From positions 50,179,574-50,243,573 of the forward strand of contig CM068842.1 of NCBI GenBank assembly GCA_028554795.2: a stretch of 64,000 nt of DNA, given 5' to 3'. This document shows, piece after piece, positions 4,236 through 30,032 of the stretch; position 1 is the stretch's first letter; each line of letters starts with the position of its first letter. Source of the stretch: Sinohyriopsis cumingii (taxonomy: Eukaryota > Mollusca > Bivalvia > Unionida > Unionidae). A model generated the notes under the pieces. That model was not told the origin of the DNA and did not search any database. It saw nothing but the letters and a program-made list of their open reading frames with translations. The position numbers and the translations under genes were made by a program.

Positions 4236-5104
<869 letters not shown>

Positions 5105-5203
5105 TGACTGTCTCCCACCTCTTTGCTTGGTGACGAAATGCTTTAAATACGCCATGCGCAAGGTGATGCGGTGCCCGGGTAGGCTTTTTTCGTGAACGTG
5201 TAA

Positions 5204-5215
5204 CACTGGACAACA
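5204..5215 (+). repeat. left terminal inverted repeat
   Basis: 'cactggacaaca' matches the inverted right end at 11 of 12 positions. Confidence 0.85.
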
Positions 5216-5273
5216 AATTTTTACAAAAGTCATGTTACTGAAATAAAATTAGTCAATTCTTATCAATTTTTAT

Positions 5274-5322
5274 GTGCTGAACACGAATATGACAGTCAAA
5301 TTGCAAAATTGGCTCTAGTTTT
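5274..5322 (+). repeat. left subterminal inverted repeat
   Basis: About 49 bp starting 'gtgctgaacacgaatat' and ending 'ttggctctagtttt'. The reverse complement of 7494-7542 reads 'gtgccgaacacgaatat' ... 'ttggctctcgtttt'. Such subterminal pairs are typical transposase-binding regions in CACTA elements; binding here is inferred. Confidence 0.85.
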
Positions 5323-5419
5323 TTTGTAATCTGCAAGAAATTAATGTTTACATAACGAAATGCATTCCAATAGTAAAAGGTCAACTGTAATAGCCTACCT
5401 ATAAAAATCAAGTCATTGA

Positions 5420-7108
5420 CTACATCTTAGATTTCTTCGCCTGTCTCTTGTACAGCTGTTCGGGAGCATCTCTGAGGAGTGTCCAGCAGTAGTCAGCCAG
5501 CATTGTAGTGGACCATTTTCCCTGGTATCTTTGTTCCATTGTTGCGATATCTTGATGAAAACGTTCGCCGTGTTCATCACTAACAATACCACAGTTGCTA
5601 GGAAAGAAATCCAAATGGGAATGAAGGAAGTGAATCTTTAGAGACATATTGCAGCCAAGTTTCTTATGCTTCATCAACATGTCTTCTACTAGTTCCTTAT
5701 AGTTTTCTGCCCTAACATTTCCGAGGAAGTTTGTAGAAACTAGGCGAAAAACATTCCATGCTTGTTTCGCGTCACCTTCCAGCAAGTTGTTGAACCGGTC
5801 ATCTTTGAAAAGCTCTCGAATCTGAGGACCCACAAAAACTCCCTCTTTAATCTTTGCTTCGCTGAGTCGAGGGAATTTTTCATGCAGGTATCGGAATGCT
5901 GGCAAAGTCCGGTCAATGGCTTTCACGAAGTTCTTCATCAAACCTAGTTTGATGTGAAGGGGTGGTAGCAAGATTTTCTGAGCCTCAACCAGAGCTGGGT
6001 GTTGGATATTCTTCTCTCCAATGGCTACATTCTGCCTGTGAGTCCATTCCTTCCTCATGTAGTGCATTTCCCTTGCTCGGCTATCCCACTCGCATAAGAA
6101 ACACATGTATTTTGTATATCCTTGCTGCAGTCCCATTAAAAGGGCAACTACCTTCAAATCACCACAGAGGTGCCAGCTGTACTTGTTATACTCAATGGAA
6201 TTCAGTAGCTGCCTTAAGTTATCGTATGTCTCTTTCATGTGGACAGCATACGCTACTGGAATAGATGGAAGAATGTTTCCATTGTGCAAAAGCACAGCCT
6301 TGAGACTCAGTTTCGAAGAGTCCACAAATAGTCTCCATTCTTGTGGGTCATGAGTGATTTTTAAAGCATTCATGAGGCCCTCAATATCGGAACAGAATAT
6401 CAGATTACTTTCCTTTCTGAAGAAAGGCTCCAATTGCTGGTGGCGCTTTCGATATGCAGTAATTGTGACATCTTCTTCTAGAAGATTCCATTGTTGGAGT
6501 CTTGATCCTAGCAATTCTGCCTTGTTCTTTGATAAGTCCAAATCACGAATCAGGTCATTTAGTTCTTCCTGTGTTATTCTGTGTGGGGTTGATGATGCAC
6601 CACAGTGAAAATCTGGATCACTGCATGCTGATGGACCAGGAGAAGAACAGGTCGACTCACCTTTGTCTTCGTCAGATGAATCAAGAGAATATTCTGCTGG
6701 AGGTTCTGGAATAGGAAGTCCCTCACCATGTGGAACTGGTCTCAATGCAGACGGAATGTTTGGGTAGACTATTCTCGACTTCTTTCGCTTCGTTATTCCG
6801 CCGGAAAGAGGAGGAACCAAGCAGAAGTAACAGTCATTTAGGTGGTTGCTTGGCTCTCTCCACACCATTGGGACTGCAAACGGCATTGATGACCTTTTGC
6901 AATTCAACCACTGTGAAAGCTGTGTTGTACATGTAGCACAGCATATATGCGGAGCCCAAGGCTTGTCTTGGTCACCAACCTTGCATCCGAAGTAAAGATG
7001 ATATGCCTTCTTCACTTGAGAATTGATACTTTTCTTCTGGTTGGCAAATGTCACTTCCCCACAAATATAGCAAAAATTGTCCGCGGTATTAACACACTTT
7101 CGAGGCAT
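5420..7108 (-). CDS. intact transposase-like protein, CACTA-type
   Basis: A single 562-codon exon from an ATG at 7108 to a TAG at 5420-5422, with no break, between inverted termini. The N-terminus is zinc-finger-like: C13-x2-C16, then C56/C57 and C60, similar in layout to insect ZAD domains, and a further C93-x2-C96. A Ser/Asp-rich linker spans about 140-170. The second half looks RNase H-like: 'LFVDSSKLSLKAVLL' (D263) as a first strand, 'CGDLKVVALL' (D317), a C-x2-C 'CFLC' (337-340), and 'SDEHGERFHQD' ending at 520, which would supply the acidic third residue. D, D, C-x2-C, E is the arrangement described for CMC-group DDE transposases. I recall closely similar uncharacterised single-exon proteins in many invertebrates, which fits a mobile family. 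The expected role is cut-and-paste transposition. Fold and catalytic residues are inferred, not shown. Confidence 0.75.
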   Translation of the reverse strand: MPRKCVNTADNFCYICGEVTFANQKKSINSQVKKAYHLYFGCKVGDQDKPWAPHICCATCTTQLSQWLNCKRSSMPFAVPMVWREPSNHLNDCYFCLVPPLSGGITKRKKSRIVYPNIPSALRPVPHGEGLPIPEPPAEYSLDSSDEDKGESTCSSPGPSACSDPDFHCGASSTPHRITQEELNDLIRDLDLSKNKAELLGSRLQQWNLLEEDVTITAYRKRHQQLEPFFRKESNLIFCSDIEGLMNALKITHDPQEWRLFVDSSKLSLKAVLLHNGNILPSIPVAYAVHMKETYDNLRQLLNSIEYNKYSWHLCGDLKVVALLMGLQQGYTKYMCFLCEWDSRAREMHYMRKEWTHRQNVAIGEKNIQHPALVEAQKILLPPLHIKLGLMKNFVKAIDRTLPAFRYLHEKFPRLSEAKIKEGVFVGPQIRELFKDDRFNNLLEGDAKQAWNVFRLVSTNFLGNVRAENYKELVEDMLMKHKKLGCNMSLKIHFLHSHLDFFPSNCGIVSDEHGERFHQDIATMEQRYQGKWSTTMLADYCWTLLRDAPEQLYKRQAKKSKM

Positions 7109-7493
7109 TACTGTTCTTTATTGTACGTAAATGGATAAAATAATAAGTTTTATGTAACAGTAGCTTGAACTGTCTCGCACAACGTCTAAAATATTTTAAA
7201 TGCTGAACCTATCTGATTGGGCTTTATATAGTACACTGCTTACGTCAGCTTCAGCAGCCGCCTGGCATTAGTATAATAGGCCTACACATGTATAGTACAC
7301 TGCTGACGTCAACTTACTTCAGCAGCCGCATGGCATTAGTATTGCATTGCATCAGAAAATGATGCAATCAACTGTGGATGATGTGAGCATGATGGTATTA
7401 TGCAATGTTACATCATTATTCCGGATGTTGCTGCAGTCCTACTGGAGAAATTTACACAGTGAAACATAGAAAATGAGGTATATGAATATCTTC
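7109..7493 (-). promoter_or_regulatory. 5' region of the transposase gene with direct repeat
   Basis: Two direct copies of an approximately 50-bp unit lie at 7227-7274 and 7291-7343. Each starts 'tatagtacactgct', contains 'acgtca' and ends 'tggcattagtat'. The second copy holds a full CRE-like palindrome TGACGTCA (7304-7311); the first has TTACGTCA. They sit upstream of the minus-strand ATG, so they may be promoter or transposase-binding elements. Function is inferred. Confidence 0.5.
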
Positions 7494-7542
7494 AAAACGA
7501 GAGCCAATACAAATTTTTCACGGTTATATTCGTGTTCGGCAC
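7494..7542 (-). repeat. right subterminal inverted repeat
   Basis: Inverted partner of 5274-5322. Together with the terminal 12-mers it shows that both ends of one element are present. Confidence 0.85.
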
Positions 7543-7590
7543 ACCAAAATACTACAGATTAGGGCCTTTTCAAGTCAGTAATGATTTCAC

Positions 7591-7602
7591 TGTTGACCAG
7601 TG
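7591..7602 (-). repeat. right terminal inverted repeat
   Basis: Read on the minus strand it is 'cactggtcaaca', pairing with the left end. TAA follows immediately outside. Confidence 0.85.
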
Positions 7603-7605
7603 TAA

Positions 7606-16556: not shown

Positions 16557-17249
16557 CTAATGAACACACACGTGTTTTAGTGGCATCAACAGAAAGATAT
16601 TGCGAATGGAGCTGATGCGTCTCAGCTCAAGATATGCAGCCTTGCATATGTTCATGACATGCTGTTGCAATGTGAGAGTACTGTCCAGAGTGACACATAG
16701 GTTTCGTACTGACTGTGTGAATTTAATGTTGGTGTTGCTGACATTTATTGTTTGAGGTAAAGGATCTGAATGAGAAAGTCTTTGTGTTGTGATCAAAATG
16801 GCCTCAGTTTTATCATCATTCATCTGCAGCTTGTTACATGTCATCCATGATTTCACATCAGAAATGTACATCTCTACACCTTGGATGGTAGCATCAACTT
16901 CAATTGGGTGGGTAGATTTGTATATTTGGGTGTCATCAGCGTACAACTGGTGAGACAACGGATGATGATCTATGACACTTGAGAGCGACTGAGTGTATAG
17001 AATGAAGAGAACCGGTCCAAAAACAGACCCCTGTGGAACACCACAACATAGATTAACTGGGCTGGAGTGTATTCCATTTGCAGACACAATTTGTGTCCTG
17101 TTGACCAAGTAGGACTTGAACCACAGTAAGGCTGTATCATGAATGATAAATACATGCCGGAGACGGTGAAGCAATATAGCATGGTCTATTGTGTCAAATG
17201 CTGCAGACAAAAAAAGGAGGGTGAGGACTATAATCTTTCCGCTATCCAA
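16557..17249 (-). pseudogene. LINE reverse transcriptase core fragment
   Basis: 230 codons. RT motifs appear in order: 'LSAAFDTIDHAILL' (about 14-27), 'GVPQGSVFGPVLF' (70-82) and the catalytic box 'YADDTQIY' (103-110), followed by the thumb region. An intact enzyme would copy its own RNA at a nicked target. Here the protein lacks its N-terminal endonuclease and the rest of the frame, and stops at 16557, about 250 bp before the C-terminal block. Confidence 0.88.
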
Positions 17250-17538
17250 AGCAGAGAGAATGACATTAGCTACTTTTAGAAGAATAGTTTCAGTACTGTG
17301 GCAAGGGCGATATGCAGATCGTACATTGCTAAAAAGACTGTTTGAATTCAGATGAGATACAAGCTGGGATAGAGCAACCTTTCTAAGATTTTTGATATGA
17401 ATGGGAGATTAGAAACTGGGCGGTAGTTCTTTAAATCGTTATGTTCTAGTGTTGGTTTCTTCAGCAGAGGCTTTATAATGGCAGTTTTGAAAACTGATGG
17501 GAATTCCCCTGATGAGAGAGAGGTATTAATAACATTAG

Positions 17539-17892
17539 TTACTGAAGGTAATACTGGATCTCAAGCAGCAGTGATGTTGGAATTGGATCAAGTTCACATG
17601 ACTTTGGTACACTCTTCATCAGGATTGTACAAACGAAATCCATAGAGACCGGTTTAAATGATGCTAATGGTTGCCGCTCAATTTCTGTATCCCAACTGTA
17701 TGGTGACGACAATTCAATTGAAATTGTGGTGTCAAGCTTATCTCTAATGGGTTGTACTTTGTCACGGAAGAAATTTGCAAACGTGTCCGGAAGGTCGACT
17801 GGAGAGAAGGTAGTTAGAAGTGGTGTAGATTTGTTCCTTGACATTAGCTTGTTAGTAATCTCGAAGAGCTCTTTGCAGCTGAAACTTTCCAT
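17539..17892 (-). pseudogene. LINE ORF fragment, endonuclease-RT linker
   Basis: 117 codons. 'FANFFRDKVQPIRDKL' and 'SCELDPIPTSLL' correspond to the segment just before and at the start of the reverse transcriptase in CR1/L2-type proteins. The frame ends in a stop before the RT core, so the copy cannot make a full protein. Confidence 0.75.
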
Positions 17893-28636: not shown

Positions 28637-30032
28637 TACCATTATTTTCAATAAATCTTAGGCCACTTCCAATAAATATTACACTACTTTCAATAAATAT
28701 TACACTACTTCCAATAAATATTACACTACTTTCAATAAATCTTACATTACTTCCAATAAATCTTACACTACTTCCAATAAATCTTACATTACTTCCAATA
28801 AATATTTCACTACTTCCAATAACTCTTATACTACTTCCAATAAATCTCACACTACTTCCAATAAATCTTACATTACGTGCAATAAATCTTACATTACTTC
28901 CAATAAATCTTACATTACTTCCAATAAATCTTACATTACTTCCAATATATCTTACACTGCTTCCAATAAATCTTACACTACTCCCAATATATCTTACGCT
29001 GCTTCCAATATATCTTACGTTAGATCCCATAAATCGTACACTACTTCCAAAAAGTCTCACATTACTTCCATAAATCTTACTTTACTTCCAATAAATCTTA
29101 CACTACTTCCCATATATCTTTCGCTGCTTCCAATAAATATTACGTTACTTCCCATAAAACTTACATTACTTCCAATAAATCGCACACTACTTTCAATAAA
29201 TCTTACACTACCTCCAATAAATCTTTCACTACTTCTAATAAATCTTTTACAACTTCCAATAAATCTGACACTACTTTCAATAAATCTTACACTACTTCCA
29301 ATAAATCTGTCATTACTTCCAATAAATCTTACACTACTTCCAATAATTCCAATAAATCTTACACTATTTTCAATAAATCTTGCATTACTTCCAATAAATC
29401 TTTCATTACTTCCAATAAATCTTTCACTACTTCTAATAAATCTTTTACAACTTCCAATAAATCTGACACTACTTTCAACAAATCTTACACTACTTCTAAT
29501 AAATCTTACACTACTTCCAATAAAGCTTACACTGCTTCCAATAAATCTGACACTACTTTCAACAAATCTTACACTACTTCCAATAAAGCTTACACTACTT
29601 CCAATATATCTTACACTGCTTCTGATATATCTTACGTTACTTCCCATAATCGTACACTGCTTCCAATAAATTTCACATTATTTCCAATAAATCTTACATT
29701 ACTTCCAAAAGATCTTACACTACTTCCAACAAATCTTACACTACTTTCAATAAATCTTACATTACTTCCAATAAATCTTACATTACTTCCAAAAGATCTT
29801 ACACTACTTCCAACAAATCTTACACTACTTTCAATAAATCTTACATTACTTCCAATAAATCTTACACTACTTCAAATAAATCTTACACTACTTTCAATAA
29901 ATCGTACGCTACTTCCGATAAATCTTACACTACTTTCAATAAATCTCACGCTACTTCCAATAAATCTTACACTACTTCCAATATATCTTACACTACTTCC
30001 AATATATCTTACACTACTTCCAATAAATCTTA
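28637..30032. repeat. 21-bp minisatellite, heptapeptide-coding in one frame
   Basis: About 66 copies of a 21-bp unit, consensus 'cttccaataaatcttacact' plus 'a'. Because 21 is a multiple of three, the minus strand reads a 7-residue repeat, consensus V-R-F-I-G-S-S. Frames of 196 codons (29647-29057) and 144 codons (29060-28626) overlap by 4 bp. Higher-order structure is visible: blocks around 29210-29290 and 29400-29480 repeat almost exactly, and blocks near 29690-29780 and 29780-29860 do too. No unique flanking coding sequence, signal peptide or splice context supports a gene. Confidence 0.92.

Follow-up and report, generated by a model that had tools for sequence, protein, structure and literature searches.

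Chapaev transposons of the CMC lineage have been described as bearing CAC/GTG ends and as leaving target duplications of 3–4 bp (PMC4079192; this and the other papers cited here are quoted from excerpts of their text). For the Chapaev3 members, the same source reports TWA duplications that always lie between A and T, the transposase motifs C(2)C, LH and H(4)H, and protein lengths of 556 aa for Garfield and 78 + 484 aa for Merrow (PMC4079192). Chapaev3 is also reported to carry the Chapa zinc finger, a domain that part of the RAG1 N-terminus has as well (PMC4411706, excerpt). The CMCT group is characterized by ends that are mostly CA..TG, by 2–5-bp duplications and by C(2)C and H(3-4)H motifs (PMC12730594, excerpt). 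Among molluscs, the excerpts hold two CMC entries in the curated library of a bivalve survey (PMC10294476) and one CMC insertion in the recent-insertion list for Octopus vulgaris (PMC13282606). Here we describe a mobile element and its gene in 64,000 nucleotides of DNA from the mussel Sinohyriopsis cumingii (assembly GCA_028554795.2, contig CM068842.1, positions 50,179,574 to 50,243,573 of the forward strand). We refer to this whole stretch as the window and count positions from its first letter. Our reading, which we consider probable, is of a complete, autonomous transposon that moves by cut and paste, most likely belongs to the Chapaev3 group of CMC and has gone through one recent explosive amplification. 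This judgement covers more than the classification: that the element is a transposon, that it underwent a burst and what it targets are points shared by the rival classifications.

The window does contain a complete DNA transposon with exact boundaries, 2,399 bp long, at 5204–7602. Its boundaries and repeats are the following.

5201..5203, plus strand: left target-site duplication TAA, read from the sequence.
7603..7605, plus strand: right target-site duplication TAA, read from the sequence.
5204..5215, plus strand: left terminal inverted repeat, CACTGGACAACA.
7591..7602, minus strand: right terminal inverted repeat, TGTTGACCAGTG (CACTGGTCAACA on the minus strand).
5266..5300, plus strand: left subterminal inverted repeat, 83% alike over 35 nt to 7516–7550.
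7516..7550, minus strand: right subterminal inverted repeat, partner of 5266–5300.
5308..5322, plus strand: left arm of a third inverted pair, 15 nt, 93% alike.
7494..7508, minus strand: right arm of the third inverted pair, partner of 5308–5322.

The terminal repeats agree at 12/13 positions when the flanking A/T is counted and at 11/12 without it. End-to-end complementarity over the outer 125 bp scored 17, whereas the null, built from random segment pairs at the same distance within the window with long AT runs excluded, reached at most 11, and none of 300 random pairs was as strong. The subterminal pair is a candidate transposase-binding site. A sequence-only reading of this DNA had already described CACTGG..CCAGTG ends with TAA on both sides, a second, subterminal inverted pair and an unbroken 562-codon gene, and had taken them for one coherent mobile unit with a 3-bp target duplication; all of this stands, the gene being a minus-strand open reading frame (ORF) at 5420–7108. 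That reading had also proposed a search of the genome for empty sites and for further copies that share the termini and have 3-bp duplications, and both are there. Thousands of end tags occur, and the same ends with identical 3-bp duplications were found in 34 of 36 full-length copies from a DNA search (the window copy included) and in 30 of 32 consecutive end pairs on contig C1. No further copy or fragment of the element was found in the rest of the window (E up to 1).

The copies reveal the target directly. In the DNA-search sample, the 34 duplications were 13 TAA, 9 TTA, 5 TAT, 5 ATA, 1 TGA and 1 CTA; the preceding base was A in 24/34 and G in 9/34, and the following base was T in 33/34. 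The C1 sample gave 13 TAA, 8 TTA and 9 others among 30 duplications, with A before them in 23/30, A or G in 29/30, and T after them in 26/30. The duplication was thus TWA in 22/34 and 21/30, respectively. RTWAT stood at 21/34 sites of the first sample and at 6 of the first 12 on C1, compared with 1.0% of window positions.

To find empty sites, 34 joined flanks were compared with the window and the loci in hand, and three had homologues that run through the junction without the element (L043, L017 and L013). The homologue of L043 is 80% alike and has one 3-bp site with no gap. L017 has three such matches at 70–74%, again with one 3-bp site and no gap, and a fourth (69%) with a longer gap at the junction. 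The homologue of L013 is 90% alike over 395 bp and lies in the window itself, at 17328–17710. As a separate observation, this stretch and the L043 flank homologue (16775–16962) adjoin or overlap a segment at 16557–17249 on the minus strand, which we take to be a reverse transcriptase fragment of a non-LTR (long terminal repeat) retrotransposon.

The family is very abundant in the genome searched (2.905 Gb, 1,138 contigs). An exact 31-mer of the left end occurs 2,410 + 2,446 = 4,856 times, an exact 33-mer within the gene 2,386 + 2,349 = 4,735 times and an exact 32-mer of the right end 2,485 + 2,429 = 4,914 times; the reversed controls of all three tags occur 0 times each, and these counts are complete. 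If one tag pair is one copy, about 4,900 copies of 2.4 kb amount to about 11.7 Mb, or 0.4% of the genome. The DNA search gave 40 matches of 98–100% identity; it omits very common words, so that it undercounts, and its 40 copies are a sample biased towards rarer words. A search with the protein scored 77 of 9,588 first-look candidates, and all 77 were full-length, 100% identical and open in frame.

Copy lengths were examined on C1, where ends within 8 kb of each other were paired. Of the 100 listed matches to each tag, all were used for the right end, 94 for the left end and 88 for the gene, the latter two lists being cut where that of the right ends stopped. Among the matches listed, 91 of the 94 left ends were paired and 9 of the 100 right ends were not; 88 of the 91 pairs spanned 2,392–2,402 bp (73 of them exactly 2,400), the other three spanned 2,364, 2,295 and 1,540, and 80 of the 91 enclosed the exact gene tag. 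Thus, few of the C1 copies are deletion derivatives that retain both ends; the copies counted are mostly young, as pairing sees exact end tags and older copies escape it. This scarcity of internally deleted copies suggests that amplification may have been quick or that repair of the donor gap may have been faithful.

Three irregular loci were seen. L041 (G000:C1:123662909-123666916) holds only the left 1,605 bp, with TAA flanking the fragment on both sides, which may reflect chance or a one-ended insertion. L047 and L048, about 23 kb apart on G000:C14, look like one internally deleted copy, lacking about 1167–1892, that is present twice, apparently through segmental duplication. L069 (G000:C2:129508000-129516000) holds inverted copies at 492–2899 and 5073–7480, about 2.2 kb apart. 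The two show 100% identity along 2,408 bp, a stretch that takes in a few bases of flank, and this could possibly be the outcome of gene conversion or of an unusual double insertion.

The amplification is recent. In the first 32 consecutive end pairs of C1 (L049–L060 and L078–L097), the mean distance to the majority sequence is 4.4 substitutions, or 0.18%, and two copies carry no substitution at all. Sharing between two or more copies is confined to 6 of the 132 variable columns, and the pattern is thus star-like. The full 562-aa frame is kept in 24 of these 32 copies; in the biased sample 36 of the 40 copies align end to end, and 25 of the 36 have the full frame. Among the first 12 C1 copies, the 10 of equal length (the 2 of other length were dropped) show 12 synonymous, 26 missense and 4 stop changes, which by eye, without a formal test, lies near the neutral shares of 21%, 74% and 5%. 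Between copies the protein varies at residues 453 (V/A) and 481 (H/Y): the window copy has V and H, and the five intact copies among the first 12 of C1 have A and Y.

Changes in these copies are concentrated at CpG. Transitions affect 0.81% of CpG sites and 0.10% of other C/G sites (28/3,456 against 29/28,058 copy-sites in the 32 copies; p = 7e-13), a 7.8-fold difference in copies that are about 0.2% diverged. The likely cause is germline cytosine methylation of the insertions since they landed. CpG decay in copies so young suggests that a new DNA transposon is methylated in a mollusc. The element as a whole has a CpG observed/expected ratio of 0.53, compared with 0.81 in the rest of the window. 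This depletion could come from a past in a more strongly methylated genome; its coding sequence, or older methylation in the present host, would explain it equally well.

The gene and protein of the element have the following features, all on the minus strand.

5420..7108, minus strand: transposase-like ORF, 562 codons and a stop, with no intron required.
6929..7072, minus strand: Cys/His-rich N-terminal module, residues 13–60, C13-x2-C16..C57-x2-C60; residues 1–105 have no Pfam match.
6320..6322, minus strand: D263, proposed first catalytic residue.
6158..6160, minus strand: D317, proposed second catalytic residue.
6092..6103, minus strand: C336-x2-C339, the C(2)C motif as defined in excerpts of PMC12730594 and PMC4079192.
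5954..5959, minus strand: L384-H385, the LH motif as defined in the excerpt of PMC4079192.
5615..5632, minus strand: H493-x4-H498, probable H(4)H motif.
5555–5572, minus strand: H513-x4-H518, alternative H(4)H motif.
5564..5575, minus strand: E512 to E515, either of which is a proposed third catalytic residue.
7220..7342, minus strand: putative promoter-side region upstream of the ATG, with a TATATAAAG-like box and two partly repeated units, the direct repeats D1 and D2, with CRE-like TGACGT sites.

The stop-free run is 565 codons long, against a longest of 185 in 300 simulated sequences with the same dinucleotide make-up. The motif order D263, D317, C336-x2-C339, L384-H385, H493-x4-H498 and then E512 or E515 was found by inspection, as were C(2)C, LH and H(4)H themselves, and motifs so short can arise by chance. 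If H513-H518 is the real H(4)H, E525 would be the third catalytic residue. We take the protein family to be common among uncharacterized invertebrate proteins, as did the sequence-only reading. A composite query for this family scored 78 of 9,429 first-look genome candidates, all 59–60% identical to it; this query was written partly after the window protein had been seen, and the identity is not independent evidence. The nine loci translated from its matches (L061–L069) all belong to the same family as the window element, so they offer no diverged alignment. No relatives of the protein were found in the sets of viral contigs, genome contigs and phages scanned. Six stretches of viral contigs gave weak local matches (best E 8e-4, in an alignment with an internal stop) around the motif that had selected them, and we judged them to be chance.

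On its anatomy, we call the element Chapaev3-like and favour membership of Chapaev3 as the better supported assignment, though with reservations. Like Merrow of lampreys and Garfield of insects, it has CAC..GTG ends, a TWA duplication between A and T and a length close to their 2.3–2.45 kb (PMC4079192, excerpt). Its 562-aa protein falls within the 556–562 aa of those transposases (78 + 484 = 562 in Merrow) and, beyond the second Asp, carries C(2)C, LH and H(4)H as they do (PMC4079192, excerpt). It differs from both in being intronless, as Merrow and Garfield have two exons; most other Chapaev3 genes are single-exon in that account (PMC4079192, excerpt). It also differs from them in its few deletion derivatives, and the likeness to them is one of anatomy. 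Tags of full-length copies number about 4,900 here, compared with more than 254 hits, fragments included, for the most abundant autonomous element tabulated in the excerpt of PMC4079192. As for the Chapaev3 zinc finger, a Cys/His-rich N-terminus is present, and no Pfam model matches it. The sequence-only reading had found a zinc-finger N-terminus unusual for its group; the Chapa finger reported in Chapaev3 speaks otherwise (PMC4411706, excerpt). It had also likened this region to ZAD, and the C-x2-C..C-x2-C spacing may resemble that of the domain; a search with residues 1–105 matched 0 Pfam families at E up to 10, the ZAD model included, and does not support that identification. Its C337 and C340 are correctly C336 and C339, and its description of the protein as uncharacterized holds, in that neither Pfam nor NCBIfam has a match.

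Several results weigh against our interpretation. The whole protein matched 0 Pfam families at E up to 10 and no NCBIfam model. Compared with PDB sequences, it gave a single chance-level match (E 1.9) and no RAG1 or Transib chain; residues 1–105 alone gave no match. Single-sequence AlphaFold2 models were too poor to interpret, with a mean predicted local distance difference test (pLDDT) score of 39.3 at full length and 40.8 when residues 225–562 were modelled; the RNase H-like core with D, D and E, a fold that the sequence-only reading had set as a test, is accordingly putative. The target rule is a strong preference here, as TAT, ATA, CAA and TCA, among others, are also used, whereas PMC4079192 (excerpt) describes it as constant in its own set of elements. 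A matching duplication is absent from 2 of the 36 full-length copies of the DNA search and from 2 of the 32 on C1 (L081 and L088). Finally, the empty-site homologues of L017 are only 69–74% alike, one of them with the longer junction gap, and for L013 the junction falls in a CT run with a 4-base gap.

Other explanations have to be set beside this one. The sequence-only reading placed the element in the CACTA group, and part of that survives: CACTG-type ends, a 3-bp duplication and C(2)C and H(3-4)H motifs are as in CACTA/EnSpm, and the ends and duplication fit the EnSpm definition (PMC12730594, excerpt). The A-TWA-T preference and a single protein of about 560 aa are, however, what is reported for Chapaev3 (PMC4079192, excerpt), and the element is short with one long ORF. 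The protein also lacks any Pfam match, and Pfam presumably includes CACTA transposase models. Because of the CAC/GTG ends, the A-TWA-T preference, the 562-aa length and the order C(2)C-LH-H(4)H, Chapaev3 within CMC fits better than CACTA proper, and we regard a CACTA/EnSpm element in the strict sense as quite unlikely. It is somewhat less improbable, though still unlikely, that the element represents a separate, unnamed CMC-like lineage, which would have its ends and target rule in common with Chapaev3 by ancestry and would have its own transposase clade and N-terminal zinc module. That the protein matches no family model favours such a lineage, and Plavaka, ESTA and Lanisha show that lineages of this kind are still being recognized (PMC12730594, excerpt); against it, the testable features lie within or near the published description of Chapaev3, and the protein length is that of lamprey Merrow (PMC4079192, excerpt). 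In the literature searches, none of the papers listed names this family in its title or the opening of its abstract.

Transib duplications are 5 bp, unlike the 3 bp here. PIF/Harbinger elements also produce TWA duplications, as this element does, but the C(2)C-LH-H(4)H order and CAC ends are found instead, and the protein has no match in Pfam, which we assume to include Harbinger nuclease models. In addition, only one ORF of at least 150 aa was found in the element (shorter ones were not checked), where a Harbinger element would have a nuclease and a second, Myb-like ORF. We consider a PIF/Harbinger element very improbable. The D-D-C(2)C-H(3-4)H-E plan is also that of Transib and RAG1, and it is common to CMC as well (PMC12730594, excerpt). 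An intact gene with thousands of near-identical tags, together with the apparent segmental duplication at L047/L048, might instead point to a repeated host gene or an assembly duplication. Differing flanks, differing 3-bp duplications and the element-free homologous sites refute this for the copies examined, and we give it almost no weight.

Returning to a Chapaev3-like transposon, we propose how it may move. In this scheme, the 562-aa protein would recognize the ends by way of its Cys/His-rich N-terminus, with the paired repeats, terminal and subterminal, as its contacts, and a D-D-E active site would cut the element out. Strand transfer with a 3-nt stagger would then insert it at A-TWA-T and leave the 3-bp duplication. 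The target and the stagger are evident from the copies; excision, end pairing and the chemistry are presumed by analogy with the family, and present-day activity is plausible. A further possibility, which we hold only tentatively and think doubtful, is that the freshwater mussel underwent, or has just undergone, a single horizontal invasion, in which one founder gave rise to some 4,900 copies, full-length and for the most part coding, before derivatives came to dominate, with the host now starting methylation. If this invasion took place, the element could have come from a more strongly methylated host, for instance a fish (mussel larvae are parasites of fish), which would be in keeping with the CpG depletion, and the consensus-identical copies would still be moving.

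A few other features were seen beside the element. An (AT)54.5 microsatellite lies at window positions 4994–5102, about 100 bp left of the insertion. A tandem array of 21-bp units occupies window positions 28649–30032 and has, on the minus strand, a repetitive open frame of 196 codons (29057–29647). A reflectin query of the genome gave one marginal match, interrupted by six stops. In the assembly, contig C807 has two COX1 loci at a distance of 15,961 bp, with a protein that looks like that of a freshwater mussel (Unionida), and another, different COX1 lies on C1106 (G000:C1106:13000-14800, L077). The latter is 68% identical to the C807 gene and belongs either to a male-type mitochondrial genome or to an associated organism.

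In sum, the element belongs to a known type of transposon, of which it is a new member, unusually young and abundant. The surprises are how large the burst is, how few derivatives there are and how early a methylation-like signature has set in. The scale and youth are visible only from the whole genome, not from the window. Intact ends and an intact protein are now available for a family outside Pfam. DNA transposon families usually come to notice late, once their copies have decayed and short non-autonomous derivatives abound. Here the sampled copies are about 0.2% from the consensus, 24/32 still code, and 3/91 pairs, among the matches listed, are under 2,392 bp. Such copies can be used to ask how amplification proceeds, what has kept derivatives from taking over and how the host responds, and they offer a rare view of a transposon outbreak near its peak.

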